A DNA stretch of 64,000 bases. Origin: Streptomyces sp. OfavH-34-F. Lineage in GTDB: Bacteria > Actinomycetota > Actinomycetes > Streptomycetales > Streptomycetaceae. The stretch is from the NCBI RefSeq assembly GCF_022347745.1, contig NZ_JAKRGC010000002.1, positions 1 to 64,000 on the forward strand, in the 5' to 3' direction. The notes below the pieces were generated by a model. The model was given only the letters and a program-made list of their open reading frames with translations. It was not told where the DNA came from and made no database searches. Position 1 is the first letter of the stretch, and each line of letters opens with the position of its first letter. The translations under genes were made by a program, and so were the position numbers. Positions 25,673-44,382 of the stretch are shown in pieces.

Positions 25673-25700
25673 GTGGTGCTCCTCGGAAAGATGGGGACGA

Positions 25701-27071
25701 TCAGGCTGCGGAGGTCTCGCCGACCAGGACAGGGCTCGCGGTCGGACCGGTCGACGGGCCGGGGTACGCCGCTCGGCCCAGGGCAGTGCCGCGCAGGTCG
25801 GCCAGGCGCGGAACGGGCAGGAGGTTGAGTTCCTCGGTGGGGTGCAGCAGCCCGCGCTCGCAGGTCTCGGCCACCCACGCGGCGCACGAGGCTCGGGGAA
25901 AGGCGAGGTTGAGACCGATCTCGCCCTTGGGCAGCACCCCGTTGAAAGGAACGGAGATGTCCTGGCTGTTCCAGTACGCGTACACGGACGTCGCCTTGGC
26001 CTGCTCGAACACCGGAAAGAGCGCCGGGTAGCGGGGCAGTGTGCGCATCTCGCGGAAGACGAGCTGCCCGGCCAGGTACGGCGCCATGACGGTCAGGGTG
26101 TCGAAGTCGGCGCCCGCGTACCGGAAGGACACCGCGCCCGCGTCCCGGCCCGGGCCGAGCGCGGCGCAGGCGAACAGGTGCGGTAGGCGACGACGTACGT
26201 AGGCGTCGGCGCCCAGGGCGAGCGCGGGGTCGACACGGTCGATCAGCTCGGTGAGCTGCGCGCGGTCGGGATTGAACAGGGCCAGGTCGAACAGGCGCCC
26301 CATCGTCTTGACGGCGGCGAATGCGAGTTCCTTGTAGAGGCGGTTGTTCATCTCCCCTGCCAGTGCATACCCCTTGGTCTCGGGGCTGGTGGAGTACAGC
26401 AGGAGGTACTCGGACAGGACCTCGAAGTACAGGTAGCCCAGGAACGGCATGTGCGGGACGGCCTGGACCAGCTGGTGGAAGAACGCGGTCGTGGAGGTGG
26501 TGTGCTGACCGCGGGCGTCGGCGAGCAGCAGGTCCAGGAAGCCGGCCGTCTCGCACACCCTTGCCACGGCGCTCTGCCGGAGGTGCTCGTCTTCGCCCTC
26601 GGCGAGGAATCCGCGGTGGGCCAGGTAGGTGTCCATGTGAATGCCGCCGAGGCGCAGGTAGTCCAAGCCCTTGGCCGGCGCGGGTGCCTCGGGGCGGACC
26701 TCGAACACGAGGGTCTTGGTGTCGGGTTTGGTCCGCAGCAGGTAGGAGCCGAGGTTGTGCGGGCGCAGCCCGTCGGCGGTGACGGTCAGCGGGGCGCAGT
26801 ACAGGGCGCCAACCAGGCAGCCGGCGGAGCCGTGGAGTTCGCCGGTGGCGCGGATGGCGTCCAGGTACGGGGTGGTGTGCATCAGGTGGATGGGCCGGCT
26901 GCTGGTGAGGGAGGCGAGCATCTGGTTGCCGGTGGGGGCCAGCAGGTGTCCGTTCGGGGCCTCGCGGTGGAGGGTGAGCCAGTCGTCGGTGCTCTCGGCG
27001 AGCCCGGTCGGCCCCGGCAGGGCGGTGTGGGTGGCGTAGTCGGTGTGGACGGCGTCCCAGGCGGTGTGCAC
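25701..27071 (-). CDS. Unrecognised cluster protein (possible biosynthetic enzyme)
   Basis: The 456-residue product was not recognised. It begins at GTG after a G-rich ribosome site. Soluble, with repeated aromatic and His content (SRPIHLMHTTPYLDAI, LLRTKPDTKTLVFEVRP, LGGIHMDTYLAHRGF), and long helical stretches (LYKELAFAAVKTMGRLFDLAL). No Rossmann, P-loop or PLP motif is visible. It lies between the epimerase and the HD protein with short gaps, so it presumably acts in the same pathway. It may be the signature enzyme of this cluster. Confidence 0.7.
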   Translation of the reverse strand: MHTAWDAVHTDYATHTALPGPTGLAESTDDWLTLHREAPNGHLLAPTGNQMLASLTSSRPIHLMHTTPYLDAIRATGELHGSAGCLVGALYCAPLTVTADGLRPHNLGSYLLRTKPDTKTLVFEVRPEAPAPAKGLDYLRLGGIHMDTYLAHRGFLAEGEDEHLRQSAVARVCETAGFLDLLLADARGQHTTSTTAFFHQLVQAVPHMPFLGYLYFEVLSEYLLLYSTSPETKGYALAGEMNNRLYKELAFAAVKTMGRLFDLALFNPDRAQLTELIDRVDPALALGADAYVRRRLPHLFACAALGPGRDAGAVSFRYAGADFDTLTVMAPYLAGQLVFREMRTLPRYPALFPVFEQAKATSVYAYWNSQDISVPFNGVLPKGEIGLNLAFPRASCAAWVAETCERGLLHPTEELNLLPVPRLADLRGTALGRAAYPGPSTGPTASPVLVGETSAA

Positions 27072-27092
27072 GAGGGTCGTCCCCCTTCTCTT

Positions 27093-27836
27093 CTAGCGGG
27101 TCAGGATGGTCACGGCGCGGGTGAGGGCGTCGCGGTGTCCAGCGCCGTGAAGGCGGGCGCGCTCGGAGTGGACGACCAGGCTGTGCGCGAAGGGCAGCAG
27201 CCCGTCGGGGACCGTCACGCGCAGGTAGGTGAGGTCGGGCCACCACCGCGTGAGCGGCAGGCGGTAGCGGTCCAGGCAGTCGGCGGCCTTGAGTAGGTCA
27301 GTCAGTTGCGGGGTCTGTTGGTAGGCGGTGTGCTGAGCGGGGCTGAAGGCGTCGTAGGGCAGGTTGTGCACGGCGATTGCCGCAGCCGCCTCCTCGCGCA
27401 GGGCTGCAGGGACGTCCTGGCCGAGGACGGCGAGGACCTCCTCGGCGTGCTCGGTGAACCAGTCGGCGCCCCGGCGGCCGTGCTCGGGGTCGGTCCGGTC
27501 GTCGTGGCGGCGGCAGTCGTGGAGGGCAGCCGCAGTGCACAGCGCGGCGGTGTGCGGCCCATCGAGATCGTGGACGCGGGCGAGGAGGAAGGCGAGGATG
27601 CCGGTGCGGGCGCAGTGGCTGATGCCGTGCAGACCCTCGGCCTGCACGGGGCGGGTGAACCAGGCCGGGTCGGGGACCAGCACCTGGATGTCGTCCGCCG
27701 CGAGCTGCGGGAGGTCGGCGGCCGGGGGTGGGTTGCCCGCGATCCAGTCGAGGGTGGTGGCGTCCATCCTCTGGTGCTCCGGCAGCATCCGGCCGACGGC
27801 CAACTCATGCAAGCTGAATTCGGGTTGAGCGGGCAC
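27093..27836 (-). CDS. HD-domain phosphohydrolase-like protein
   Basis: In the 247-residue product the HD signature is readable: HGISHCARTGILAFLL, then ALHDCRRHDDRTDPEHG, and later AVHNLP and AADCLDRYR. These give the usual H...HD...D metal ligands. HD proteins hydrolyse phosphate esters of nucleotides or small metabolites, and some act as oxygenases. It starts at GTG. Its place in a sugar-type cluster suggests removal of a phosphate or nucleotide from an intermediate, which is inference. Confidence 0.8.
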   Translation of the reverse strand: MPAQPEFSLHELAVGRMLPEHQRMDATTLDWIAGNPPPAADLPQLAADDIQVLVPDPAWFTRPVQAEGLHGISHCARTGILAFLLARVHDLDGPHTAALCTAAALHDCRRHDDRTDPEHGRRGADWFTEHAEEVLAVLGQDVPAALREEAAAAIAVHNLPYDAFSPAQHTAYQQTPQLTDLLKAADCLDRYRLPLTRWWPDLTYLRVTVPDGLLPFAHSLVVHSERARLHGAGHRDALTRAVTILTR

Positions 27837-27863
27837 AGCAACTCTCCCCTCCGGAGTGGACGG

Positions 27864-28868
27864 TCAGGCGAGGGCGAGTTCGCAGGCGGTGACCGCGGTG
27901 GCACGGCCGATGGCAGCCGCCGTCAGCAGCGCCTCGGTCACGGTCACGGCGTGCGCGCCCTCGGCCAGGGTCACCAGGCCGCGAGGGCCGGCGCCGAGGA
28001 GGGCGTCGCGCATCAGCTTGTGCTCGACGGTGAACGGGGGCTCCTGCTCGGGCAGCGTGATCAGGCGGGCTTCGCCACCTTGGACGCCCGGGAAAGAGTC
28101 GGTCGGGGCCAGGGAGGCGGTGTTGGGGTGGTGGGTGAGGGTGCCCGCGACGGTGTCGGCGGTCAGGACTTCGGCCACGGTGTGGACCTGGACCTGGCGG
28201 TGCTTGAACGGGGTGATCCAGTCGGCGTGGTGGTGGGCGAGGACCCCGCCGCGCAGAACCGTGGTGGCGGTGGCGGTGTCCTCGTGCGGGCCGGCCAGGG
28301 TGCGGGTGGCGGCGGTGACCGACTCGATCGGCGTCCCGGCGAGCCAGGAGACCAGGTCGATGTCGTGGACCAGCAGGTCCAGGGCGACGCCTACGTCAAG
28401 GACCCTGCCGGAGTAGGGGCCCTGGCGTCGGGTCTCCAGCTGCCACAGCTCTCCGAAGTCCCCGCCGTGAAGGAGCCGGGCCAGCTCCGCGAGCGGGGCT
28501 TGGTGTCGTTCGGTGTGCCCGACGGCGGCGAAGGTCCCGGTGCTCGCGAAGGCGTCGTGGATCCGGCGGGCGGCCGTGCCGGTGGGTGCCAGCGGCTTCT
28601 CGATGAGGGCGGGCACGCCGGCCGCCGCGAGGAGGAGGGCGTAGTGCTCGTGTGTCGCGCTCGGGGTGGCGATGACGCAGTAGTCCAGTTCCAGGCGCAG
28701 CATCTCCTGAACGTCGCGGTACAGGGGGATGTCGGGGAAGGCGGTGTGCCTGGCGGGGTCGAGGTCGCTGACGGCGACCAGGTCGATGCCGGGCAGGGCG
28801 GCCATGGTGCGGGCGTGGACGGTGCCCGCCCAGCCCAGGCCCACCACGCCGGTACGCAGCTTCGTCAC
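27864..28868 (-). CDS. Gfo/Idh/MocA-family oxidoreductase
   Basis: The 334-residue product has an N-terminal Rossmann fold (VGLGWAGTVHARTM), the EKPLAPT motif typical of the family with its catalytic Lys, and a C-terminal alpha/beta domain. A conserved His in the DLLVHDIDLVSWLAG stretch fits the family active site. Members oxidise or reduce sugar or cyclitol hydroxyls with NAD(P). Next to a DegT aminotransferase it could make the keto group that is then aminated; order of steps is inferred. Confidence 0.9.
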   Translation of the reverse strand: MTKLRTGVVGLGWAGTVHARTMAALPGIDLVAVSDLDPARHTAFPDIPLYRDVQEMLRLELDYCVIATPSATHEHYALLLAAAGVPALIEKPLAPTGTAARRIHDAFASTGTFAAVGHTERHQAPLAELARLLHGGDFGELWQLETRRQGPYSGRVLDVGVALDLLVHDIDLVSWLAGTPIESVTAATRTLAGPHEDTATATTVLRGGVLAHHHADWITPFKHRQVQVHTVAEVLTADTVAGTLTHHPNTASLAPTDSFPGVQGGEARLITLPEQEPPFTVEHKLMRDALLGAGPRGLVTLAEGAHAVTVTEALLTAAAIGRATAVTACELALA

Positions 28869-28897
28869 GGACTCTCTCCTTCAGATCCGGGGGTGGG

Positions 28898-29971
28898 TCA
28901 CCGGGGGGCGGGGGCGCTCCAGGCGGCGATGCGGCTGGTGCTGGTCTCGGCGCGCATCCAGTCGGGGATGGCGTTGGGGGTGGTGCGCACCCAGTCGACG
29001 TAGCTGTCGATGCCGTCCGCGGCGCCGATGGCCGGCTGCCACTCCAGGACGGTCCGCATGCGGGTGGTGTCGGCGCAGGCGCCGAGCGGGTCCTGGGCGA
29101 CGCGGGGGGCGTCGACGATCCGGGCGCCGGGGAAGTGCCTGGCCACGTGCTCGGCGACCTCGCGAACTGCGGTCTGGGCGCCCGTGCCGAGGTTGAGGGT
29201 CTGCCCGGATGCCGCGGGCGCGGTGAGGCAGATGCGCAGGGCGTCGGCGACGTCGTCGCGGTGGATGAAGTCGCGAACCTGGCGGCCGCCGTTGTTGAGC
29301 AGCAGCTGCTGGCCCAGCGCGGCGTACATGGTGAACTGCGCCACCACCCACGAGGCGGCGCCCGGCTTGGGAACCTGCCCGGGCCCGTAGACGGAGAACG
29401 GCCGCAGGATCGTGTAGTCCCGTTCGGCCAGGTCCAACAGCTGCCGGGTGTGTCCCTCGGCCCACAGCTTCGAGTTCGCGTAGATGTTCAGAGGGTTGAG
29501 CGGCTGGTCCTCGGCGAAGTAGCCGGCCTGCTGGCCGGAGGGCTCGTGCGGGGCACCGTGGCCGTAGACCTGGGCGGTGGAGAGCAGGACGAAGCGGCGC
29601 ACGTTGCGGGCGGCGGCTACGGCGCGGAGCAGGGTGTCGGTGCCCGTCAGGTTGGAGCGGACGGCCTTGTGCGGGTCGGTGGTGCAGCCGTGGACGGAGG
29701 AGTGGGCGGCGGCGTGGACGACGTAGTCGGCTTTGGCAACCATGCGGCGCACCAGCGGCTCATCGTTGATATCGCCGACGGTCAGTGCCGCGTCGGTGGG
29801 GCCGGTGCCCAGCAGGGCCAGGGTCGTGGGCCCGTAGGCGCTGAGATCGTCCAGGAGGGCCGGGTGCGCGCCGGCGCGGGTCAGGGTGGCGCGCAGCGCG
29901 GTGCCGATGAACCCGGCGCCGCCGGTGATCAGGACGCGGGCACCGGTCAGGTCGTTCGTCTGAGCAGGCAC
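28898..29971 (-). CDS. NAD-dependent epimerase/dehydratase (extended SDR), second copy
   Basis: The 357-residue product begins VLITGGAGFIGTALRA (NAD loop) and contains LLSTAQVYG, then IYANSKLWAEG with Tyr and Lys of the active site, and FSVYGPGQ further on. It resembles UDP-glucose 4-epimerase and dTDP-glucose 4,6-dehydratase relatives. It is distinct from the other SDR of the cluster at 24614-25672. Two SDRs, an aminotransferase and an oxidoreductase together imply several changes on one sugar. Confidence 0.9.
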   Translation of the reverse strand: MPAQTNDLTGARVLITGGAGFIGTALRATLTRAGAHPALLDDLSAYGPTTLALLGTGPTDAALTVGDINDEPLVRRMVAKADYVVHAAAHSSVHGCTTDPHKAVRSNLTGTDTLLRAVAAARNVRRFVLLSTAQVYGHGAPHEPSGQQAGYFAEDQPLNPLNIYANSKLWAEGHTRQLLDLAERDYTILRPFSVYGPGQVPKPGAASWVVAQFTMYAALGQQLLLNNGGRQVRDFIHRDDVADALRICLTAPAASGQTLNLGTGAQTAVREVAEHVARHFPGARIVDAPRVAQDPLGACADTTRMRTVLEWQPAIGAADGIDSYVDWVRTTPNAIPDWMRAETSTSRIAAWSAPAPR

Positions 29972-29999
29972 GGGGGTCTCCTCGTGGAGGTGGAGAGGG

Positions 30000-30920
30000 T
30001 CAGGAGCAGATGAAGTGGCCGGTGTACTTGGTCAGGGCGAAGTAGCCGGCGGTCTCGATGGCGGCTTGGACGTGGGCGTGCACGCGGTGTTCGAGTTCGG
30101 TGAAGAACGCCGGTGGTAGCCCTTCGCCCGGTTTGGAGCCGGCGCAGCAGTGGTTGCAGCTGCGGTAGAAGGCCATGAACTGCTCGGCCTTGCCGAACTG
30201 GAGCTGGTCCTGCCAGTCCACGCGCTCGACGGACGTGAAGTGCCCGGCAAGTTGGTCGGCGCCGTTGCTCAGGGAGATGCGGGCCTTCGGCGTGGCGCGG
30301 ATCAGCTGCTGGGGAGCGTTCATCTCACGCAGCGCAGCGAAGTGGACGTTCCACATCTCGACCATGGAGTCGTTGCGGTCGGTGGCGAGCACGAACCGAC
30401 CCCCAGGGCGCAGGACCCGGCGTACCTCGGCGAAGCAGGCGCCCAGATCGGTGACGTAGTGCGCCATGTAGACGGCCATGACCCGGTCGAAGCTGTCGGT
30501 GGCGAAGGCACCCAGGTCGTCCGCACTGCCCTCGACGAACTCGCACGGAGTGGCCACGCCGTCCAGTCGCTGCCGGGCGGCCTCCAAGGCGGCGGGGGCG
30601 ATGTCGAAGGCGGTGAGATGGCCAGCGGCCAGGTAGGGGCGGATCCGGGCCAGAATTTCGCCGTTTCCGCAGCCCAGGTCCAGCAGTTCCTCGGTACCGC
30701 GCAGGTCCAGGGCCCTGATCAAGTGGTCGTGCAGAGCCAGCGGGTTGGTGCGGAACCGATCGTGGGCCAACTGCTTCGCGTCGAGCTTGCTGGTGTTGGT
30801 GAAGTAGCTGTCGCGGGCGTCCTCGGCCCGCAGTTCGAAGTGCTTCTCGGGGATGACCTTCAGAGCCAGAGCCTCCAGCTCCGGGGTACTGAAGTCCAGG
30901 GAGGTCTCGGTGAACGACAA
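30000..30920 (-). CDS. Class I SAM-dependent methyltransferase
   Basis: The 306-residue product has motif I LLDLGCGNGEIL near residue 85, motif II around HLTAFDIAP and motif IV region DRVMAVYMAHYV, followed by RRVLRPGGRFVLAT. It starts at TTG with GGAG upstream. It is the first gene of the minus-strand biosynthetic operon and is divergent from the XRE regulator across 227 bases. The Cys-rich C-terminal patch CNHCCAG is unusual and may bind metal. Confidence 0.88.
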   Translation of the reverse strand: MSFTETSLDFSTPELEALALKVIPEKHFELRAEDARDSYFTNTSKLDAKQLAHDRFRTNPLALHDHLIRALDLRGTEELLDLGCGNGEILARIRPYLAAGHLTAFDIAPAALEAARQRLDGVATPCEFVEGSADDLGAFATDSFDRVMAVYMAHYVTDLGACFAEVRRVLRPGGRFVLATDRNDSMVEMWNVHFAALREMNAPQQLIRATPKARISLSNGADQLAGHFTSVERVDWQDQLQFGKAEQFMAFYRSCNHCCAGSKPGEGLPPAFFTELEHRVHAHVQAAIETAGYFALTKYTGHFICS

Positions 30921-33932: not shown

Positions 33933-35213
33933 TCACCTACTTGCCCGGCGTCTGCTGGACGAGAAGAGGACAGAGGGCGGCAGATTCTGAGAGTTCGACG
34001 TCGTTGACCTCGGCCTCGGCAGCGAGGAACTGGTGGCCGAGGCCGCCGAGACCCTCCGCTCCTGGGAGTGGCTTGCGTAGGCGTGCGCCACGTGGACAAG
34101 CCACTGCGCGTCGGCATCCAGGTCTCTGCGCGAGGTGGTCTGCGCCGGCGGGGCGATATCGGAGGCCAGTTGGTTGGCAGCGAGGTTGGCGAGCGCTTCT
34201 TTAACGACGGCCGCCTCGATTTGTGCCGAGCCTTGCTCGGTTCTGGCGTCGAATATATTCCGAGCTGCGTCTTGGGACTCTAGGGAACGGTACGGTCGCA
34301 GTGCCAGGATCCCGTCGCTGATTTCAACAACGCGTCGCTGTAGGTGAAAGGCAGTATCTGCTTCGGATGGATTCTCGGTGAGTGGCCGAGCGGGCGACAG
34401 GACGATATGCGGCATCGCTTTTGCAAGATCATGCCACAGGGGTGCGAGAGCTTCGAAGGAATCCCTTTCCCAGCGCCGGCGGCGCATGTGTCGAATCGGG
34501 TACACCACTGCGGGCAGGGTCAGACCGAGGCAGATCAGCGCGACGGCGAGTGCTGGAGACGTCACGCCGACCGCGCAGCGTACGGCACTGAGTGAGGTGC
34601 ACCTCTCGCCATTGCCATTGAGTTCGGCCCCGGCCCCCAGCCCCAGATGGACCAGTTGAAGGGTCTTGTAAGTGAGGTGGATCAGCGCGAACCCGGAGCC
34701 CACCGCCGCAGTACGCAGGCCCACACGCACAGCGGTCCGTCGCGTTGTCGTTGCCTGACGAAGTGCCTGGACCACAAAATTGATGTCCGTTGCTCCGACG
34801 ATGGAGGTGTAAAGGAGTGAGTAGAGAGCGTACGCGTGTGCCGAATGGTCGGTTGCCTGCTCGTACGCGAACAGGCAACCGATGCCGGCGAGGGCGATAG
34901 CCAGCCATTTGAGACGTGATCCGATGAGCTGTCTTGCTCTGGTCGGGCCCTGGTTGAGCTGGAGCGAAACAGCCAAGACTGCTGTGGTGGCTGCCAGCGA
35001 TGAGCCGTCGCTGAGAATACGGGTTCCGTGAGGCACGGCTGCCTCGACGGTACGTTCCACCAGCGGCGCATACGTGGACAGGAATACGGCGAAGGAGCTG
35101 AGGAGCGCGCCCATGGCCCACGTGCCGGCGGGTCGCGGCTTTCTCCTGCCGAGTACCCAGAAGCAGCTAGCACCTGCGAGCAGGGTGGCCGCGCCGAGGA
35201 AGAAGATGCTCAC
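33933..35213 (-). CDS. MAB_1171c-like integral membrane protein, C-terminus probably frameshifted
   Basis: The 426-residue frame begins with about seven hydrophobic segments (for instance residues 5-20, 33-52, 72-90, 105-122, 163-185, 215-240), then a cytoplasmic helical region (MRRRRWERDSFEALAPLW). This matches the MAB_1171c family of putative actinobacterial transporters. Its GTG overlaps the peptidase stop (GTGA). After AHAYASHSQER the frame becomes Ser/Arg-rich and unnatural, while the adjacent frame reads GLGGLGHQFLAAEAEVND to a stop at 33937, so a one-base indel near 34065 is likely. Confidence 0.75.
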   Translation of the reverse strand: MSIFFLGAATLLAGASCFWVLGRRKPRPAGTWAMGALLSSFAVFLSTYAPLVERTVEAAVPHGTRILSDGSSLAATTAVLAVSLQLNQGPTRARQLIGSRLKWLAIALAGIGCLFAYEQATDHSAHAYALYSLLYTSIVGATDINFVVQALRQATTTRRTAVRVGLRTAAVGSGFALIHLTYKTLQLVHLGLGAGAELNGNGERCTSLSAVRCAVGVTSPALAVALICLGLTLPAVVYPIRHMRRRRWERDSFEALAPLWHDLAKAMPHIVLSPARPLTENPSEADTAFHLQRRVVEISDGILALRPYRSLESQDAARNIFDARTEQGSAQIEAAVVKEALANLAANQLASDIAPPAQTTSRRDLDADAQWLVHVAHAYASHSQERRVSAASATSSSLPRPRSTTSNSQNLPPSVLFSSSRRRASR

Positions 35214-35754
35214 GGGCCGCTCTTACGTCTTCTGAAGGGCTGGGCGAAGAGAGCGTCCCAGCGCTCCGGGGCCAGGCTGGGATGAGGGGGCGGGGCCTCT
35301 CGGTCCCGGTAGATGCGCCAGCGGATCACCGACGCCATCATCTCGGCCTCGCGCTCTTCGTCGGTCGAGTACCTGGTACGGCCCGCCATGCGCATCATCA
35401 GTGCTGGGTTGAGCCCGATGAAGCGGGCTGTCTTCGCATCGACTTCCAGGTTCCCCGGATGATCGCAGTACACGTGGCACAGCTCATGCGTGAGGATGTG
35501 GCGCTGGTGGTGCACGGAAGTCCCCTCCTCGTAGAAGAGGAGATCGGCATCCGGGGTCTCGATTCGCATGCCGCACGGTGCGTCGACTGCGCCGAGTGTG
35601 GACAGCGGCCTGATGGATATCGGCTTGCCCCGGCGTTCCGCTATTGCATCGCGCAATGCCCGAGTGGTCGCCGGGTAGGGGAGACGGAGGCGTTCGACTT
35701 GTTCCTCGCACCACTGGCGCAGCCGCAACTCCGTCATGTGCGACGAGGGCATGG
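35210..35754 (-). CDS. ImmA/IrrE-like metallopeptidase domain protein
   Basis: From the ATG at 35754 the product has 181 residues, with a GTG at 35763 as an alternative. The zinc motif reads HILTHELCHVYCDHPG, so His-Glu-x-x-His is present (HELCH). ImmA/IrrE proteases cut or release repressors in mobile elements and stress responses. In actinobacteria this gene type is commonly paired with a MAB_1171c membrane protein, as here by a four-base overlap. The MmyB-like and XRE regulators nearby are candidate targets; that is inference. Confidence 0.8.
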
Positions 35755-35860
35755 CACTCACTTCCCAACCCCTAGATCCTGACTTCGGGCTAGAGCCCGG
35801 CTCCGGTTCGTGAGTGGGCGTGACGAGAATGCCAAAGGGGAGCAGGAAGCCGCACTTCCG

Positions 35861-35875
35861 GGAACTCACAGTTCC
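35861..35875. promoter_or_regulatory. Operator candidate (GGAACT-CAC-AGTTCC)
   Basis: A perfect inverted repeat with 6-base arms and a 3-base spacer lies about 107 bases upstream of the peptidase start, in the gap between it and the divergent MmyB-like regulator. The gap (35764-36135) holds no gene. Confidence 0.4.
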
Positions 35876-36135
35876 GATTACGGTGTGTGATATAAGGTAG
35901 GGCTTGTCGCGCGATTGACGCATCGCCCCGGCCTCTCTGATCCCGCGTGTGCGCCCTGGAATCTCACGTGCGGCCGACTGGTCTCAGGCTGATCACCTCT
36001 CTCCTTCCTGGTTACGCTGAATGACTGATTCATGATCCGCTGCCAGCCTTGCGGTGCAGGGTATGGCGTAAGTCACAGGGCCTCGGAGGCTATTTTCGGA
36101 CTAGGGATCTCGTCGGGCCGGGTGAGGGTGAGGGT

Positions 36136-36948
36136 ATGGGCGGTGATCGTGATTCACTTCCGATGCTGTTGCGCACGTGGCGGAACCGCACGAAGGCCAG
36201 TGATATCCCGGGTCTGATGGTCGCCGGCCGGAGAGGCGAGTTTTTGACGCAGCGCGACGTGGCCCGTTTGGCGGGAGTGAGTGAGCGTTGGTACGGCGCC
36301 TTCGAGCGCGGCGTCGAAGCCGAGTATTCACCGGACTTCCTCGACCGGATCTCGTCCGTGCTCGGATTAAGCCCTGCGGAACGCCAGACTCTCTACCTCA
36401 GAGTGCTGGGTCATCCGCCGGCCCTTTCCGGATCGGTAGTAGCGGGGGCGGACCCGGAGAATGCGGGGATTCTGCAGCAGTTCCTGGACAACCAAGGGCT
36501 GGCGCCTGCCTTCGCGACCGACCTCGCGTGGAATGTGATCGCTTACAATGAACCATTGCTGCAATGGTTTCCACGGGTCTCGACCGGGGCGAATCAGATG
36601 CGGTGGATTTTTCTGGCGCCGGAGGCTCGCGAGCAGCTCGTTGCCTGGCGGCGGGACTGGGCGCGTCCGCTTCTCGGGCGGATTCGCTACGAGCGGGCTC
36701 ATCATCCGGAAAACGAAGCGCTGGCCGGGCTCGAGCGTGACATTCTCGCGGGGTCGCCGGATGCGCAGGAGATGTGGGATCTGCACGAAGTGGCGGATCA
36801 TTCACACGGCCGTCTGCGGCGGCTCAGGCTGCCGTGCCATGACGGACGTGAGGTCGCCGTGCGTATTGCCGCGATGCGGCCGATGTCCGGAGAGTCCCTC
36901 TACGTGAACGTTCTGCTGCCGGCCCCTGGAGGCGCCGGCAGCGTCTGA
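36136..36948 (+). CDS. MmyB-like HTH regulator (TTA codon)
   Basis: The 270-residue product has an N-terminal helix-turn-helix (LTQRDVARLAGVSERWYGAF) and a C-terminal MmyB-type ligand-binding domain (DLAWNVIAYNEPLLQWFP, MRWIFLAPEAREQL). MmyB-like domains resemble PAS folds and may bind fatty acid-like ligands. The ATG at 36136 follows a G-rich GGTGAGGGT. Codon 78 is TTA (36367-36369), which ties expression to bldA. It is divergent from the peptidase operon and may regulate it. Confidence 0.88.
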   Translation: MGGDRDSLPMLLRTWRNRTKASDIPGLMVAGRRGEFLTQRDVARLAGVSERWYGAFERGVEAEYSPDFLDRISSVLGLSPAERQTLYLRVLGHPPALSGSVVAGADPENAGILQQFLDNQGLAPAFATDLAWNVIAYNEPLLQWFPRVSTGANQMRWIFLAPEAREQLVAWRRDWARPLLGRIRYERAHHPENEALAGLERDILAGSPDAQEMWDLHEVADHSHGRLRRLRLPCHDGREVAVRIAAMRPMSGESLYVNVLLPAPGGAGSV

Positions 36949-37856: not shown

Positions 37857-38186
37857 ATGCTCGCCACGCCGAGCGGTATCCCCGCATGCCCGGACACCGA
37901 CCGCCTCCGCCGCCTTGCGGATCAGCTCACCGGCATGATCCCGGGCGCGTCCACGATCCGCGTCAGCCTCACCAGCCCGCAGCACGCCTGGCCCCACCCG
38001 CACGCGATCGTCAAGGACGCGGCGGGCCGGACCATGGAGGTGAGCAGGACGACCGCCCGCATCGCGGCGCGGTGGATTCTGCGGGTCTGGCCGGAGTCGG
38101 ACTGGACCCACCCGCACACCCTCGACCTCGCCGACGCGGTCCTTACCCGCAGCGACCGGGTTCCCGCCGCCGACCGGGGCCGCTGA
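37857..38186 (+). CDS. Hypothetical protein of the replication module
   Basis: The 109-residue product starts after CGGAG with six-base spacing. It is a small alpha/beta protein (DRLRRLADQLTGMIPGAS, TIRVSLTSP, HAIVKDAAGRTMEVSRTTARIAARW) with no motif I recognise. It is immediately followed by the initiator-like gene with a one-base gap, so the two are co-translated. Similar small proteins lead replication operons in actinobacterial elements as far as I recall; function is unknown. Confidence 0.75.
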   Translation: MLATPSGIPACPDTDRLRRLADQLTGMIPGASTIRVSLTSPQHAWPHPHAIVKDAAGRTMEVSRTTARIAARWILRVWPESDWTHPHTLDLADAVLTRSDRVPAADRGR

Positions 38187-38187
38187 C

Positions 38188-39207
38188 ATGGCGCGGATAC
38201 GAACGATCAAGCCGGAGGCGTTCGTCTCCGAGTCGCTCGCCGAAGTGACCGTGGCGGCCGAGCGGACCTTCTTCGGCCTCCTCACCCAGGCTGACGACCA
38301 CGGCCGCCACCGCGACAACGCGGCCATCATCGCCGGGCTGCTCTGGCCCCTGCGGGCTGAGCACACCTCGGTCCACGTCGAGGACGACCTCCACCAGCTC
38401 GCCACCGCCGGTCTGATCTGCCGGTACACCGGCTGCGACGGCCGCCGCTACCTGCACATCGTCACCTGGTCCGAGCACCAGAAGATCGACAGGCCCAGCC
38501 AGTCGCGCCTTCCGTCCTGCCCGCATCACCAGGCTGCCGACCGGTGCGCACCCTGCAAGGGCACCTGTGCCAAGGCCGCCGAGAAGTCGCCGAAGCCTCC
38601 GCGAGGGCTCGCCGGGGATTCCCCGAACCTTTCCGCCACCCTCGATGCAGCCGGGCAGCACGACGCGACACCTCGCGATGACACAGACAAGGCTTCCGCT
38701 GCCCCGCAGGGCGCCCTCGCCAGCCCGGACAACACAGTCGGCCGGAGACAGGAAGAAACGGCAGGTCAGGGCACCTTCCCCGAGTCCTCCCCGAGCCTTC
38801 CCCGAAGCCTCGACGAGGGCTCGGCGCCTGGATCTAGGATCTTGGATCCTGGATCTCTTGTCCCTACGGGGCGCGCCGCGCCCGCAGCTGGCATCTCGGC
38901 GCAGCAGCTCGTCGGCGAGTACGTCGCGGCGTGCGGTGAGCGTCCGCCCCGCGACGTGATCGGCCACCTCGGAAGGATCACCAAGCGGCTGCTCGACGAG
39001 GGCATCAGCCCGGAGCACGTACGGGCGGGGCTGGCGAAGTTCGCTGCCAATCCGAAGCACCCGAGCGTGCTGACCAGCATGGTCAACGAGGCCATGAACG
39101 CGCCCTCGGCCGGTTTGGCACGGCCGGGTATCCGGCCTAACGTGCCTGCCCACCAGGCGTGGACCAACCCGTCTGACGCTGCCGCCGCCTACGCCGAGGA
39201 GCTCTGA
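38188..39207 (+). CDS. Phage-type replication initiator-like protein
   Basis: The 339-residue product opens MARIRTIKPEAFVSES, with AERTFFGLLTQADDHGR and LHQLATAGLICRYTG, a winged-helix layout seen in replication proteins of actinophages. A zinc-like patch (CPHHQ, then CAPCKGTC) and a long Ser/Pro-rich disordered linker follow. A C-terminal helical domain (LVGEYVAACGERPPRD, VRAGLAKFAANP) may contact the helicase loader. Its stop overlaps the start of the DnaC-like gene. Together they look like an initiator-loader pair. Confidence 0.75.
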   Translation: MARIRTIKPEAFVSESLAEVTVAAERTFFGLLTQADDHGRHRDNAAIIAGLLWPLRAEHTSVHVEDDLHQLATAGLICRYTGCDGRRYLHIVTWSEHQKIDRPSQSRLPSCPHHQAADRCAPCKGTCAKAAEKSPKPPRGLAGDSPNLSATLDAAGQHDATPRDDTDKASAAPQGALASPDNTVGRRQEETAGQGTFPESSPSLPRSLDEGSAPGSRILDPGSLVPTGRAAPAAGISAQQLVGEYVAACGERPPRDVIGHLGRITKRLLDEGISPEHVRAGLAKFAANPKHPSVLTSMVNEAMNAPSAGLARPGIRPNVPAHQAWTNPSDAAAAYAEEL

Positions 39208-39914
39208 TGGCCACCAGCCGCCGAGAACCGCAGCTCCTTGGCGCGAGCGCCCTGGAGCGGATGACCAGGATCCTTGCCGCCCGGAACATCGACCCGGCCG
39301 CCCTCGCCGGAGCGCGGTCCGACGAACCCGAGCAGCCCCACCCGCTGGACGCACTGTCGGCCGGCATGCCCCCGCGCTACCGGGCCGCAGTCGCCGACCA
39401 CCCCCAGGTCCTGGACTGGACCCGGCAAGTCGCAGACGCAGCGGTCGCCCCCACCCTCCGGGCCCGGCGCCAGGTCACCACCGGGCCCAGCCTCCTGATG
39501 GCCGGGGTCGTCGGCGCGGGCAAGACCCACCAGGCGTACGGCGCTGTCCGGGAACTGGTCAGGAACGGGGTCGGCGTGCGCTGGCGCGCGACCACGGCGG
39601 CCGACCTCTACGCCGAACTGCGCCCCCGGCAGGGCGTCGACAGCGAGCGGGAGCTGGCGATCGTCAGCAGGTGTCCGCTGCTGATCCTCGACGACCTCGG
39701 CGCCGCCCGAGCGACGGAGTGGGTCGAGGAGATCACGTACCGGCTGATCAACCGCCGCTACAACCTCATGCTTCCGACGCTGATCACCACCAACCTGGCG
39801 ATCAGGGACCTCCGCAGCTACCTCGGCGACCGCGTCGCCTCGCGCCTCGCGCAGATGACCACTCGCGTGGAGTTCGAGCCCGTCGACCGCAGACGCGACC
39901 GCGCCGCCGCCTGA
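39207..39914 (+). CDS. DnaC-like ATPase (helicase loader)
   Basis: The 235-residue product has Walker A GVVGAGKTHQAYG near residue 104 and Walker B LLILDDLGAARATEW near 158, then LITTNLAIRDL and an arginine-finger region (RLAQMTTRVEF). This is the DnaC/IstB AAA+ arrangement. It probably loads the host replicative helicase onto the element origin. It is coupled to the initiator-like gene. Confidence 0.88.
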   Translation: MATSRREPQLLGASALERMTRILAARNIDPAALAGARSDEPEQPHPLDALSAGMPPRYRAAVADHPQVLDWTRQVADAAVAPTLRARRQVTTGPSLLMAGVVGAGKTHQAYGAVRELVRNGVGVRWRATTAADLYAELRPRQGVDSERELAIVSRCPLLILDDLGAARATEWVEEITYRLINRRYNLMLPTLITTNLAIRDLRSYLGDRVASRLAQMTTRVEFEPVDRRRDRAAA

Positions 39915-40032
39915 CCCACCCCAGGCCGCACCGCCGGGCAGAGCGCCCCACCGCGCCGCCCCTATGCCTTCCCGACCCAGCGCACCTCTCCGCCGACGCC
40001 CCTGCGCGCGGAGAGCGATCGGAGCCACCACC

Positions 40033-40596
40033 GTGACCACCACGACGAACCGCCCTGCCCGCCACCGGTCGCTCGGCGACCACTCCTGGCAGGACGATGC
40101 CGTCTGCCAGAGCACCCCCTACAACCCGGTCGACCCTGACCAGTTCTTCCCGGAGCCCGACGAGACCCACAAGATCGCCGCCGCGAAGGCGCTGTGCGGC
40201 CAGTGCCCGGTCCGCCGCATCTGCCTGGACGCCGCCCTCGAAGGCGGCGACACCGACGGCATCCGGGGCGGACTCACCGAGGAGGAACGCGCGAGGCTGC
40301 ACTCCAGGATCGCCGACCGCCTCGACGACAGCCGCGTCAACGACACCATCGCCGGACGCGACATCCACCTCACCAAGGCCGAACGCCGCGCCGTCGTCCT
40401 CGCCGCCTACCGGCACGGGCTGAGCGAACAACGCCTCGCCTGGCTCCTGAAAATCACCGAGGAACACGCACAGAAGCTCTACCGCGAGACCCGCCGCGCC
40501 CTGCGCAACCGCGCGCTGAACCAGCCGACCGGCACCCCACCGCCCGACCACCAGGCCGAGCCGCTGGGCCGCGACGACTTCGGGACGGCGGCATGA
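40033..40596 (+). CDS. WhiB-family Fe-S regulator with C-terminal extension
   Basis: From the GTG at 40033 the product has 187 residues. The four cluster ligands are Cys25, Cys55, Cys58 and Cys64 (LCGQCPVRRIC), and the turn GIRGGLTEEE follows. These 4Fe-4S proteins bind sigma factor and DNA. Beyond residue 95 an HTH-like extension (HGLSEQRLAWLLKITEEHAQKLY) is present, which most Wbl proteins lack. Plasmid and phage WhiB paralogues are known to block host development. Its stop overlaps the next start (ATGA). Confidence 0.92.
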   Translation: MTTTTNRPARHRSLGDHSWQDDAVCQSTPYNPVDPDQFFPEPDETHKIAAAKALCGQCPVRRICLDAALEGGDTDGIRGGLTEEERARLHSRIADRLDDSRVNDTIAGRDIHLTKAERRAVVLAAYRHGLSEQRLAWLLKITEEHAQKLYRETRRALRNRALNQPTGTPPPDHQAEPLGRDDFGTAA

Positions 40597-41660
40597 CCAC
40601 CCCCAACACACCGACCGCCGCCCGCCTCACCGGCTGGGACCGCACAGCGATCATCGCCCTGGGCGGCGCCGGATGCGCCCTGTCGTACGACGCACTGCAG
40701 CAGATGGCAGTCGCCATCCACGTCAGGGGCGTGCTGACCTACCTCTTCCCGCTGGTGATCGACGGCTTCATCGCCTATGGCGTCCGCGCCCTCCTGGTCC
40801 TGCGCAACGCCCCGTTGCGCGCCCGGCTCTACGTCTGGATGCTCTTCGGTACGGCCACCGCCGCCAGCATCTGGGCCAACGCCCTGCACGCCGTCCGCCT
40901 CAACGGACAGGTCGCGCCCGGCACGGGCCTGCGGCTCGGGGACACGGTGGTCGCGGTGCTCTCGACCCTGGCCCCGCTCGCGCTGGCCGGAGCCGTCCAC
41001 CTCTACATCCTCATCGCACGGGGACCGGTCAAGACCGGTGACCGCGAGGGCACGGGTCACCCCGGCCACCCCGGTCAGGCCAACGGGTCTGACCGGGTCG
41101 CGCTCACCCGAGATGACCGGCTCGGTCAGCAGCGCCCGGAGAACGGTCAGGTCGGTCCGGGGCAGCCGGTCACCGCCCTGACCGGCTGGCCGGCCGTCTC
41201 CCCGGACACGCGGACGGCGAGTCCCCGGTCAGTGACCGGGGAGAGCGCTTCGACGGACAGCCTCCTCCCGGTCACCGGTGACCGCGAGGAGCAGAGAAGG
41301 GCCTCTGACCTGCGCGGTCAGTCCGACACCGCGCCGCCGGTCAGCGATTGCACGGCGGATTCCAGGTCGGTCGGCAGCGCCCTGGACAGCGGGAGCATGG
41401 CCACCGGCCGGTCGGTGACTCCGGCCCAGGTCAGTGACCGCGAGCCTCGGACAGGCGGTGACCGGCGGGGTGACCCGGACACCGAGGAACTGCTCCGGAT
41501 CGCCCGGTCGGCAGTCAGGGCGGAGGACAAGCTGACCCGGAAGGTGGTCGCCCAGGCCATCCGGGGACAGCGAATACCGCTGTCCAGCGACACCCTGACC
41601 GGCCTGATGGCCCAGCTCCGAGCCCAGCACGGACAGCAGGTCACCCCCACCCGCAACTGA
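40593..41660 (+). CDS. DUF2637 membrane protein
   Basis: The 355-residue product has four membrane segments in residues about 13-145 (IIALGGAGCALSYDAL, LTYLFPLVIDGFIAYGV, LYVWMLFGTATAASIW, LAPLALAGAVHLYIL). DUF2637 proteins are common on Streptomyces plasmids and may help in transfer or spore-associated replication, though this is unproven. The C-terminal 200 residues are disordered (TGDREGTGHPGHPG) because that DNA doubles as a repeat array. A short folded tail (IARSAVRAEDKLTRKVV) ends the protein. Confidence 0.85.
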   Translation: MTTPNTPTAARLTGWDRTAIIALGGAGCALSYDALQQMAVAIHVRGVLTYLFPLVIDGFIAYGVRALLVLRNAPLRARLYVWMLFGTATAASIWANALHAVRLNGQVAPGTGLRLGDTVVAVLSTLAPLALAGAVHLYILIARGPVKTGDREGTGHPGHPGQANGSDRVALTRDDRLGQQRPENGQVGPGQPVTALTGWPAVSPDTRTASPRSVTGESASTDSLLPVTGDREEQRRASDLRGQSDTAPPVSDCTADSRSVGSALDSGSMATGRSVTPAQVSDREPRTGGDRRGDPDTEELLRIARSAVRAEDKLTRKVVAQAIRGQRIPLSSDTLTGLMAQLRAQHGQQVTPTRN

Positions 41661-41708
41661 CCGGTCCGAACTCTGGCGGGTGACCGCGCCGGACACCATG
41701 GCCGGTCA
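41025..41708. repeat. Iteron-like array of TGACCGG/CCGGTCA (14 exact copies)
   Basis: Exact heptamers start at 41025, 41071, 41090, 41114, 41166, 41179, 41225, 41233, 41268, 41337, 41459, 41596, 41658 and 41702, in both orientations and in different reading frames. They lie mostly inside the disordered tail of the DUF2637 gene and continue past its stop, so the repeats are a DNA-level signal. Many extend to GGTGACCG. Two GACCCGGA octamers lie at 41472 and 41534. Candidate origin iterons or transfer recognition repeats. Confidence 0.7.
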
Positions 41709-41762
41709 CCCGCCTCACCGAGACCGCACCCCAGCCGTTCCGAACGAGTCGGAGAGCATCAG

Positions 41763-41987
41763 ATGCGCACCACACCGGCCACACCCGCCGAGGTCGAGTC
41801 CTGGCTGACCGTCCTGCACCAACACGGCCACGTGCATGACGCCCGCCGTGGACCCGACGCCACGTGGATCGTTCGCCGGTCGCCGGACAGCCGGCCGTGG
41901 ACGCTGCACCATCCGGTCCTGGCCATGGACTGGATCGAGAACACCGTCCGCGAAATCCGGCAGACGCGTTCGGAGAAGCACCGGTGA
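41763..41987 (+). CDS. Small hypothetical protein
   Basis: A 74-residue product starts at ATG after GGAG. It is a compact alpha/beta protein (AEVESWLTVLHQHGHVHDARR, then WIVRRSPDSRPWTLHHP) with no known motif. Its TGA overlaps the mobC GTG, so it belongs to the mobilization operon. Confidence 0.7.
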   Translation: MRTTPATPAEVESWLTVLHQHGHVHDARRGPDATWIVRRSPDSRPWTLHHPVLAMDWIENTVREIRQTRSEKHR

Positions 41988-42649
41988 CCACCGACGAATC
42001 GGGGCCTGCCCCCTCCGGACAGCAGCGTGACCCTACGACGGCTCCCGGCGGAGCAAGTTGTCGCGTACGACGGTCCTACGGCCCGTCGTACGCACTTGCC
42101 CCCGCCCCGGAGGGCGGGGGCAGCCCTGCTGGTTCCCGGGCGAGGGCGCACGGGAACCAGCAGGGCAACCGGCACCAGGGGGCGCCGATCACCGGGGGAG
42201 AAGCCAACAGCGAAGCCCGCCGCGAGCAGCCGAGCCCGAGCACGCCCGCCTTCCCCGACCGCATGCCGCGCCGCCGCAGCCGCAACCCGAGCCAGCGCAC
42301 CCGCAAGACGACCACGCGTCTCTCCGATATCGAGCACGCCGAGATCGCGACCGCCGCCCAGCAGCGCAACGTCACCGTCGCACGCTTCATCGCCGCGGCC
42401 GGCCTGGCCGCCGCCCGCGGTTCGACCGTTCTGCACACCAACGAACGGCTCGACGCCGCGATCGACGAGCTGGCGGCCCTGCGGGCGGCGCTGGCCCGGA
42501 TCGGCAACAACATCAACCAGATCGCCTACGTCCTCAACAGCGGCGGCCACCCGCGCTCCGGAGAACTCGAACACGCCCTGGGCGCCCTGGCCCGGCTTCT
42601 CGTCCATGTCGACAACGCCGCGAACGACCTGGTGAGGGCGCGAAGCTGA
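41984..42649 (+). CDS. MobC-like relaxosome accessory protein
   Basis: A GTGA overlap gives a 221-residue frame. The C-terminal 125 residues carry the MobC/ribbon-helix-helix fold: KTTTRLSDIEHAEIATAAQ, then VARFIAAAGLAAAR and ARIGNNINQIAYVLN, which is diagnostic. Such proteins help the relaxase melt oriT. The first 90 residues are low complexity and lie over three large hairpins, so translation may really begin nearer the ATG at about 42263. The relaxase start overlaps the stop. Confidence 0.88.
   Translation: MTTDESGPAPSGQQRDPTTAPGGASCRVRRSYGPSYALAPAPEGGGSPAGSRARAHGNQQGNRHQGAPITGGEANSEARREQPSPSTPAFPDRMPRRRSRNPSQRTRKTTTRLSDIEHAEIATAAQQRNVTVARFIAAAGLAAARGSTVLHTNERLDAAIDELAALRAALARIGNNINQIAYVLNSGGHPRSGELEHALGALARLLVHVDNAANDLVRARS
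42053..42165. other. Candidate oriT: three nested/adjacent inverted repeats
   Basis: First hairpin: GCAAGT (42053-42058) and GCGTACGACGG (42063-42073) pair with CCGTCGTACGC (42083-42093) and ACTTGC (42094-42099), with a 4-base bulge. Second: GCCCCCGCC (42098-42106) with GGCGGGGGC (42113-42121). Third: the 15-base arm 42124-42138 with 42151-42165, perfect. They sit just upstream of the MobC fold and relaxase, the usual place for oriT. The nick site is not identified. Confidence 0.65.
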
Positions 42650-44382
42650 TGGTCCCCAAGATCCGGCGCGGCTCACGCACCCACGGCCTCCTCGTTTACC
42701 TGTACGGCCCTGGCAAACGGGACGAGCACGTCGACCCCCACCTCGTCGGCTCCTGGGACGGCTTCGCCCCCGACCCCGGCCGCGACACCAGCCCGGACCC
42801 CGACCCGAAGGCCACCCTCGCCCGGCTTGCCGCAGCGCTGGATCTACGCGTCAAACAGGCAGGCGCCGACGCCCCGCGTGAGCACGTCTGGCATTGCTCG
42901 GTGCGTACCGACCCTGGCGACCGGACCCTGACCGACGCGGAATGGAACACGGTCGCCAGCCGCTTGGTCCGCGCCGTCAACCTCGCCCCGGAAGGCGACC
43001 CGGATGGCTGCCGCTGGATCGCCGTACGACATGCCGACGACCACATCCACATCCTGGCCACCATGGTCCGAGGCGACCTGCGCCGACCCCGGATGAACTA
43101 CGACTTCAAGAAGGCCCAAGCCGAGTGCCGACGCATCGAGAAGGAGATGGGCCTGCGCCGGCTGAAGCCCGGCGACGGAACCGCAGCCAGGACCCCCACC
43201 AGCGCCGAACGCTTCAAGGCCGAACGCGCCGGACGCTCCGATACCGCCCGCGAGACGCTCCGTGACACCGTCCGCCGAGCACTCGCCGGAGTGGATGACG
43301 AGCAGGAGTTCTTCGCCCGGCTTCGCGAAGCGGGCCTGCGGGTTAAGGTGCGGATCGCGCCGTCCGGCGACCTCCTCGGCTACAACGTCGCCCTCGCCGG
43401 TGACCGCAACCGGCACGGCGAACCGATCTGGTACCCCGGCTTCAAACTTGCCCCGGACCTCTCCCTCCCCAAGATCCGCCTCCGCCTCGCCGACGGCCTC
43501 AGCGAGCGGACAACACCTGCGCCGGACAACGGCCGACCGGACTGGTCCGCGCCGGCCCGAGCACGACGCAGCGCCACTGGCACCGCCGAACACGCCGCTG
43601 CCCTCCTCGGCAGCGAGAACGACCAAGAGGCCGCCGCACAGCTCGTCGGTGCCGGAGAACTCCTGGATGCACTCGCCCAGACCTCCCCTGCCGCCACCCG
43701 CGCCGAACTCGCCGCCGCAGCCCGAGCCTTCGAACGAGCCACCCGCAGCCACATTCGAGCAGAACTCGCCGACCACCGGGCACTCCGCTCAGCCGCCCGC
43801 GGCATCGTCCAGGCCGGCGGCGCACTCGGCCGGGGCGAAGACGGCGGCACCACCGCCATGCTCCTGTCCGCCCTCATCCTTCTTACCCTCGCCGCCGCCC
43901 ACTGGCACTCCGCCCGCAACCACGCCCAGCAAGCCCACGCCGCACGCCAAGCCGCCCACCACCTGCGCACCGCCTACCACCACGCCGCCACCACACCGCT
44001 GCGCGCACTCAACGCACAGGGCCGCTCCCTCCCACAGGCAGAACGCCGCACCCACCAGGCCACCATCCGCACAGCGCTGAGCGAGTCGGGACTCCGGGCC
44101 GACCGCTCAGCAGAGAACGCCCACGCCCTCGCTGCCACGCTCGCCCAGGCCGAAGACGCTGGCCACGACCCGAAGACCCTGCTCCAGCAGGCCATCGACA
44201 TGCGCGAACTCGACACCGCAGACAACATCAACGACGTCCTGGTCTGGCGCCTGCGCCACCTCGCGCACCTCCCAGCCCAGCCGGCCGAACCGTCCCGCGC
44301 CCGGCGGGCGGGTACCACGGGCCGCCCCGGCACGCCCGCCCGCACCACTGTCGAGCCACGCCACCGTTCACCACACCGCTGA
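42649..44382 (+). CDS. HUH relaxase / mobilization nuclease
   Basis: The 577-residue product begins with the relaxase opening (RTHGLLVYLYGPGKRDEH). The HUH motif appears as RHADDHIHILATMV near residues 125-138, with metal-binding His in D-H-I-H. Further on CSVRTDPGDRTLTD and FKKAQAECRRIEKEMGL match actinobacterial MOB enzymes. A likely nucleophile Tyr is at about residue 22 (YLYG). After residue 300 helical coiled-coil regions follow, with one membrane-like segment near 400 (MLLSALILLTLAAAHW). It cuts and pilots the transferred strand. The ATG overlaps the mobC stop. Confidence 0.92.
   Translation: MVPKIRRGSRTHGLLVYLYGPGKRDEHVDPHLVGSWDGFAPDPGRDTSPDPDPKATLARLAAALDLRVKQAGADAPREHVWHCSVRTDPGDRTLTDAEWNTVASRLVRAVNLAPEGDPDGCRWIAVRHADDHIHILATMVRGDLRRPRMNYDFKKAQAECRRIEKEMGLRRLKPGDGTAARTPTSAERFKAERAGRSDTARETLRDTVRRALAGVDDEQEFFARLREAGLRVKVRIAPSGDLLGYNVALAGDRNRHGEPIWYPGFKLAPDLSLPKIRLRLADGLSERTTPAPDNGRPDWSAPARARRSATGTAEHAAALLGSENDQEAAAQLVGAGELLDALAQTSPAATRAELAAAARAFERATRSHIRAELADHRALRSAARGIVQAGGALGRGEDGGTTAMLLSALILLTLAAAHWHSARNHAQQAHAARQAAHHLRTAYHHAATTPLRALNAQGRSLPQAERRTHQATIRTALSESGLRADRSAENAHALAATLAQAEDAGHDPKTLLQQAIDMRELDTADNINDVLVWRLRHLAHLPAQPAEPSRARRAGTTGRPGTPARTTVEPRHRSPHR

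Follow-up and report, generated by a model that had tools for sequence, protein, structure and literature searches.

What does a dense cluster of short DNA words do inside a protein-coding gene? The question is raised by the tail of a DUF2637 gene in Streptomyces sp. OfavH-34-F, for which an earlier note had reported 14 exact TGACCGG heptamers in both orientations at 41025-41708, next to initiator and helicase-loader genes. Coordinates refer to the window, the whole stretch of 64,000 nucleotides that was analyzed. All 14 heptamers were found in place, seven on each strand, and profile matches bear out both neighboring gene identities.

The array lies in a plasmid-like module

The neighborhood of the array is a plasmid-like module of rep, loader, WhiB, DUF2637, a small protein, a MobC/NikA-like protein, and a relaxase, with the following features.

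37857-38186, plus strand: small protein 5' of rep (phrog_11833, unknown function, 1.9e-5)
38188-39207, plus strand: phage-type replication initiator, rep (phrog_2149, 5.6e-30; phrog_1408, 5.1e-27)
38579-38826, unstranded: 11-bp phased repeats within rep (TCCCCGA at 38777, 38788, and 38799)
38828-38857, unstranded: GGATCT/GGATCC direct repeats within rep, possible unwinding element (from the sequence)
39207-39914, plus strand: DnaC/IstB-like helicase loader (phrog_50, 1.4e-35; Pfam IstB, 2.6e-12)
39964-40596, plus strand: WhiB-family regulator (Pfam, 1.5e-19)
40593-41660, plus strand: DUF2637 gene (four long helices, low-complexity linker, C-terminal HTH-like domain)
41025-41708, unstranded: array (14 TGACCGG; 37 GGWCA half-sites in both orientations)
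41469-41657, plus strand: C-terminal three-helix HTH-like domain, proposed array reader (alignments A3/A4, AF2, class-word association)
41763-41987, plus strand: 74-aa conserved hypothetical protein (translation, relatives)
41984-42649, plus strand: MobC/NikA-like relaxosome protein (Pfam NikA-like, 4.5e-8; MobC, 3.6e-6; annotated relative; start inferred by comparison with L003)
42047-42091, unstranded: oriT-like element (GGCGGAGCAAGTT, then the inverted repeat 42065-42073/42083-42091)
42649-44382, plus strand: MobA/VirD2-type relaxase (Pfam PF03432, 7.6e-9 on the longer open frame)

Judged by its place and form, the element at 42047-42091 is oriT-like and may act as an oriT. Its exact core, CGGAGCAAGTT, is present in 40 of 104 loci, patterns relaxed at one position are present in 76 of 104, and in several relatives the core is retained while the stems differ. 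The array had also been considered as the oriT itself, a candidate that was rejected because this separate, conserved element lies ~340 bp away. The middle of rep has a periodicity of its own: across 110 loci, the lag-11 value is 0.334, compared with 0.248 for the first 330 bases, and the lag-22 value is 0.327, compared with 0.254 (at lag 33, codon periodicity confounds the value). The 11-bp phased repeats within rep are likely the initiator's own iterons or origin site; in lambda, the iterons lie within the O gene. A search of the PDB with the Rep sequence gave no match. Relatives of rep were found at 67 loci of named genomes, nearly all of them Streptomyces, and in 70 of 199 genus genomes.

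Further upstream, a large serine integrase is encoded at 9389-10933 beside a UPF0047 gene and possibly forms one boundary of a ~36-kb element whose cargo is sugar biosynthesis; an aminotransferase, epimerases, an oxidoreductase, and a methyltransferase are encoded within 23460-30920. None of the 16 tyrosine integrase matches of the genome lies on the contig of the array. A DUF6545 gene followed by an HTH regulator (33933-36948) is located 5' of the replication module, and in the circular plasmid pMDJK44.2 (L139, 15932-24000), a MAB_1171c-type gene followed by an HTH regulator precedes the replication module; the two gene names presumably denote one family. In L108, a separate and strongly enriched TAGGGG/TTGTGA/ATGAGG cluster was seen downstream of the relaxase (~15090-15900 of the reverse-complemented locus).

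The natural unit is the half-site GGWCA

A count of the heptamer elsewhere, as the earlier note had suggested, gave 0.41 copies per kb in the host genome (3007 in 7.398 Mb) versus 20.5 per kb in the array, a 50-fold difference. Outside the array, the window holds 21 copies, with 18.5 (SD, 3.9) expected by chance for the entire window, and its richest 700 bp contain 14 copies, with a maximum of 4 across 200 first-order Markov simulations. The shorter word GGTCA/TGACC, whose wider context is CGGTCA, occurs 27 times in 41020-41720 versus 2.1 expected. The natural unit of the array is the half-site GGWCA, which is shorter than the heptamer. Counted as GGTCA/TGACC plus GGACA/TGTCC, 37 half-sites span 41027 to 41708: one at 41027, 23 in the linker part of the gene (41030-41468), nine in the codons of the C-terminal domain, and four from the stop codon onward.

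Selection seems to act on the DNA

The array recurs in related elements, where a search had been proposed, and is kept there although the protein linker diverges. In 67 related genes, the tail contains on average 24.4 GGTCA words versus 12.7 after synonymous shuffling, in which codons trade places between residues of the same amino acid, and 6.1 when codons follow the usage of the neighboring genes. In 60 of these 67 genes, the count lies above all 500 synonymous shuffles; in other gene sets, 41 of 43 genes lie above all 300. Furthermore, the sites use five of the six phases, and the sole empty phase is the one that would place TGA in frame. The use of five phases together with the excess over synonymous shuffles rules out a pure protein repeat. 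Since the tail words exceed the synonymous shuffles, selection seems to act on the DNA, and the array is a real, recurrent cis-element that is apparently under selection. The earlier view that DNA function dominates is upheld at the DNA level by the 60 of 67 genes; its companion, a disordered encoded tail, applies to the low-complexity middle and fails at the end, which is a conserved domain predicted to fold. An apparent preferred spacing between sites is confounded by shared ancestry.

Predicted architecture of the DUF2637 protein

The gene product matches Pfam PF10935 (3.1e-10; 40.6 bits versus a curated cutoff of 22.8), as do its relatives in L103 (38.5 bits) and L111 (25.7 bits); the protein of L086 does not match. 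Four long helices with hydrophobic stretches (hydropathy) occupy aa 14 to 142 and are followed by a linker at aa 143 to 294. The full-length AF2 model, of low confidence (mean pLDDT, 43.7), has four long helices, an unstructured linker, and three helices. With these predicted features, a location in the membrane is very probable. Modeled alone, the C-terminal domain again forms three helices, and the blocks of its helical part reach pLDDT values of 73 to 87 except at the start. Foldseek gave no structural match of this model in the PDB at an E value of ≤0.001 (best E value among the listed matches, 0.91), the VIA comparison gave no significant match (Z at most 5.3), and among 70 pattern matches from a scan of viral sequences with the HTH alignment, none was confirmed as a relative. 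In the domain alignment search, relatives of the HTH domain, weak array-less ones included, were found in 84 of the 199 sampled genus genomes.

None of the eight other DUF2637 matches in the host genome has a comparable array; L015 (contig C488) has a weaker CGTGA cluster. Host DUF2637 matches adjoin FtsK/SpoIIIE matches on contigs C77 and C210 and lie 5 kb from one on C488. In a Streptomyces virginiae plasmid (L131, ~880-1600), the DUF2637 gene has a modest GCGGAG cluster in its tail (11 versus 0.8) and lies near parAB. In the full-text literature search, DUF2637 appears in a single paper, as a domain name only.

The word is associated with the class of the C-terminal domain

More distant elements have arrays at the same place made of other words, namely, GGWCC, GGACCA, and GGGACC, and each word goes with a class of the HTH-like domain: L[SGA][SN][DA].LT.LM..LR with CGGWCA, N[QED]RLG..L with CGGWCCG, [VI]S[NH]..F..LQ..LY with GGACCA, and [RG]N[ED].L...L..LR with GGGACC. 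Among the known loci, 69 of 70 of the GGWCA class, to which the window belongs, have the array in the DUF2637 tail (67 of 68 in the first count plus L042 and L076; the miss is L108), as do 5 of 5 of the GGACCA class and 6 of 7 of the GGWCC class (the miss is L097). For the GGGACC class, the count is 5 of 7; the other two, L104 and L105, bear a GGWCC-type word together with an altered third helix. Fifteen of the 110 known loci had been set aside from the first class count, having no full-length tail or no HTH. On reexamination, L042 and L076 agree with the pairing and L097 disagrees, L116 encodes a member of another membrane-protein family, and the remaining 11 have no HTH match, among them the short or cut stretches L019, L059, and L081.

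For a further comparison, 40 loci were fetched after a domain-alignment search of 199 genomes, and L143, a duplicate of L005, was removed. The class was assigned from the protein before the words were counted, both within one script, with class profiles trained on 26 known loci. With the words of the earlier loci, and with diagnostic words and threshold set after the test-locus counts had been seen, 27 of the 28 new loci with an HTH score of at least 60 carry the predicted word, the miss being L148 (14 versus 2.8), and none of the 11 low-scoring HTH relatives carries any of the four words. As the test loci were retrieved by the HTH alignment and several of them are closely related, 27 of 28 does not equal 28 independent trials, and the 0 of 100,000 permutations overstates the case.

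We compared four predictors of the word in 54 chosen loci; 11 of the 26 earlier ones were drawn from the 70 window-class loci, and each of the 28 test loci was labeled by its HTH class, in agreement with the array call for 27 of them. The HTH gave an AUC of 0.967 and a correct nearest neighbor in 54 of 54, WhiB 0.848 and 48 of 53, the relaxase 0.778 and 40 of 48, and the membrane domain 0.760 and 35 of 36. Membrane domains that are 81 to 87% identical accompany different words where the HTHs are 15 to 23% identical, and so do relaxases that are 78 to 83% identical. The replicon varies as well: GGGACC arrays occur with a phrog_2149-type rep (L099, L103, L112, L118, L121, and L178) and with O-like initiators (L151-L155, L167-L169, and L171-L177), and GGACCA arrays occur with one initiator family in L098, L101, L111, and L113 and with the other in L005, L144, and L145. 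The two initiator families have no mutual similarity in blastp; in the stretches of L146 and L182, neither was found.

Hence, the HTH is the best predictor of the word, and membrane domains and relaxases are common to different words, which singles out the C-terminal domain. The word is associated with the class of this domain and not with the replicon, relaxase, WhiB, or membrane domain. What one would look for in a single-protein centromere, a DNA-binding-like domain whose class fits the repeats, was found here as an association. We consider it probable that the C-terminal HTH-like domain binds the array.

When single representatives of three HTH classes (GGWCC not among them) were used to query a plasmid collection, L118 gave no match, the window two, and L111 one; all three records are replicons of 0.6 to 2.8 Mb, though relatives are frequent in whole genomes.

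Exceptions to the pairing

Five elements (L089, L091, L092, L094, and L114) have dense GGGACCG arrays (12 to 29 versus 0.4 to 0.8 expected) and no HTH gene in the fetched stretch. They retain a relaxase, and the arrays that were inspected (L089, L092, and L094) are apparently noncoding. A GACC-class profile matched in genomes G012 and G015 and found no match in G180, G043, G136, and G131, the genomes of the four array-only elements other than L094; the broader A3 profile, with 150 candidates scored per genome and no positive control among these four, likewise found none. In G012, the genome of L094, a matching HTH gene is present at another place (L146). The array-only elements may be decaying, may be hitchhiking on other elements, or may be the sign of another reader. 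Conversely, L097 (score, 61) and L096 (score, 48) have an HTH without an array, and L108 and L148 are narrowly below the array threshold.

In L086-L088, L090, L093, L102, L106, L117, L120, and L122, and also in L116, the slot is taken by a different multihelix protein that ends in an HTH-like domain of another kind. None of these 11 loci has the four class words; an enrichment of CGGGC(A), which lies outside those words, is weak in most of the 10 loci that were counted and absent in the others (L116's own word not counted).

Alternative readings

Could the array serve a neighboring protein instead? As an iteron oriV, it would be bound by the neighboring Rep, which would load the DnaC-like loader so that replication begins there. 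The array is indeed 3' of initiator and loader in most loci, also in the five HTH-less elements, and repeats lie beside rep in Streptomyces theta replicons (PMC3583192). However, a single initiator family accompanies four words, and one word is shared by two initiator families; rep has its own 11-bp phased repeats beside the GGATC repeats; and in six records of phages or prophage-like elements that have an initiator of this family (L125-L130), no class word exceeds 6 copies per 700 bp. We consider an iteron oriV unlikely, and the earlier assignment of the array to the neighboring initiator finds no support, as the word is independent of the initiator family and rep holds its own phased repeats. 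It is still less probable that the array is an accessory site of the relaxosome, bound by MobC or the relaxase beside oriT. The oriT-like element ~340 bp away, the relaxase that follows in most loci, and its retention in the five array-only elements would agree with such a site, but in six relaxase-MobC plasmids (L131-L136), every class word stays at or below 6 copies per 700 bp and nothing comparable to the array stands next to mobC, relaxases that are 78 to 83% identical go with different words, and the weak arrays of the WCC-class loci L157, L162, L164, and L181 stand in stretches where no relaxase of this family was detected. WhiB was tried as the reader and rejected, with pairs up to 95% identical going with different words and five array loci without a WhiB match. 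Recognition by a TraB/FtsK-type protein (clt/TRS) had been suggested from two octamers, and these are present: GACCCGGA, which equals the consensus for TraB of pSVH1 (PMC5133688), lies at 41472 and 41534, both times as a TGACC array site followed by CGGA, and a third copy is at 42997. Yet chromosomal TRS are described in the same source as clusters of four octamers and the array has two, GACCCGGA occurs 16 times in the window, two aligned relatives keep the first octamer and not the second, and none of the nine FtsK/SpoIIIE (PF01580) matches of the genome is on the array's contig (C222), contig ends aside. With no FtsK match on the contig and only one octamer conserved, TraB recognition is extremely improbable.

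Two further explanations leave the DUF2637 locus at the center. The HTH might bind the array for autorepression, titration, or control of copy number or incompatibility rather than for anchoring. Such a role would suit sites that lie inside and just 3' of the gene itself, and it has parallels in the sps site within the gene of its binder SpdA2 (PMC4170104) and in stbDR adjoining the StbA gene (PMC3098194). Roughly 15 to 50 sites over 600 to 1000 bp would, however, be more than a repressor needs, and the binder carries a membrane domain in the same polypeptide; we regard regulation alone as rather unlikely. Alternatively, array touches HTH codons, so that cotransfer by linkage could mimic recognition: word and HTH would travel in one recombining block, and the reader would be another protein of the element or of the host. 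The contiguity of array and HTH codons and the existence of five array-only elements speak for linkage. But the codons of the membrane domain are equally contiguous and yet common to different words, a single host factor is an improbable reader of four different words, and in L104 and L105 word and third helix changed together, all of which makes mere linkage an unlikely explanation as well.

Model: a proposed membrane anchor with its own sites

On balance, we favor a reading in which the DUF2637 protein binds DNA while anchored in the membrane, with the array inside its gene as its own set of binding sites. In this model, the four N-terminal helices would be embedded in the membrane, the disordered linker of ~150 residues would extend into the cytoplasm, and the C-terminal three-helix HTH-like domain would recognize the half-site CGG(T/A)CA. 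The linker would be weakly constrained as a protein, so that its codons are free to accommodate roughly 15 to 50 copies of the site. With many copies of the protein bound at one locus, the element would be held at the membrane or at septal cross-walls, and this tie may serve inheritance and/or the handover in conjugal transfer; we see even chances that tethering does serve segregation or transfer. The DUF2637/array cassette lies between replication and mobilization genes in most loci, and protein and cis-site would move as one cassette that becomes coupled to different replicons.

A more far-reaching version, which we put forward tentatively and consider possible rather than probable, is a gene that is its own centromere. 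The disordered linker of a multipass membrane protein would hold, in its DNA, ~15 to 50 copies of the word for its own HTH, the mobile cassette would follow an HTH-to-word code (GGWCA, GGWCC, GGACCA, and GGGACC), and the five GGGACC array-only elements would be hitchhikers that borrow the anchor of another element. If true, a disordered protein linker doubles as storage for a DNA array, which would also be the reason why the linker is poorly conserved as a protein. The four HTH-word pairs are directly testable predictions, and the model offers a possible role for DUF2637, an uncharacterized family that recurs in actinobacterial mobile elements.

Comparison with known systems

The spread proteins of the SpdB type, which we take to resemble DUF2637, are likewise membrane proteins of mobile Streptomyces elements; one difference is that no comparable site array accompanies the other eight DUF2637 matches in the host genome. 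In the titles and abstract openings of the literature searched by topic, an array-carrying membrane protein of this kind is not described; a survey of AICEs is available (PMC3218068).

Plasmid pWTY27 has a few iterons bound by RepA and a clt bound by the FtsK-like TraA, with 16 bp of clt within traA (PMC3583192). These short repeats beside replication or transfer genes are similar to ours, but at the DUF2637 arrays neither a RepA- nor a TraA-type protein tracks the word.

The closest known systems are SpdA2/sps and StbA/stbDR. StbA of R388 binds repeats near oriT and affects both segregation and transfer (PMC3098194). Both systems combine a single DNA-binding protein, here a putative one, with an array of short repeats in the oriT region; they differ in that stbDR consists of two sets of five regular 9-bp direct repeats of another word, around a promoter and outside the gene. 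SpdA2 of pIJ101 and other Streptomyces plasmids binds a palindrome within its own gene, and its loss lowers segregational stability and not transfer (PMC4170104). Compared by description, it resembles the DUF2637 protein as a Streptomyces plasmid protein with short repeats inside its own coding region. SpdA2 has 135 aa, and sps comprises two or three copies of one conserved 12-bp palindrome, whereas at the DUF2637 loci the half-sites number roughly 15 to 50, there are several words, and the protein is larger and includes a membrane-like domain.
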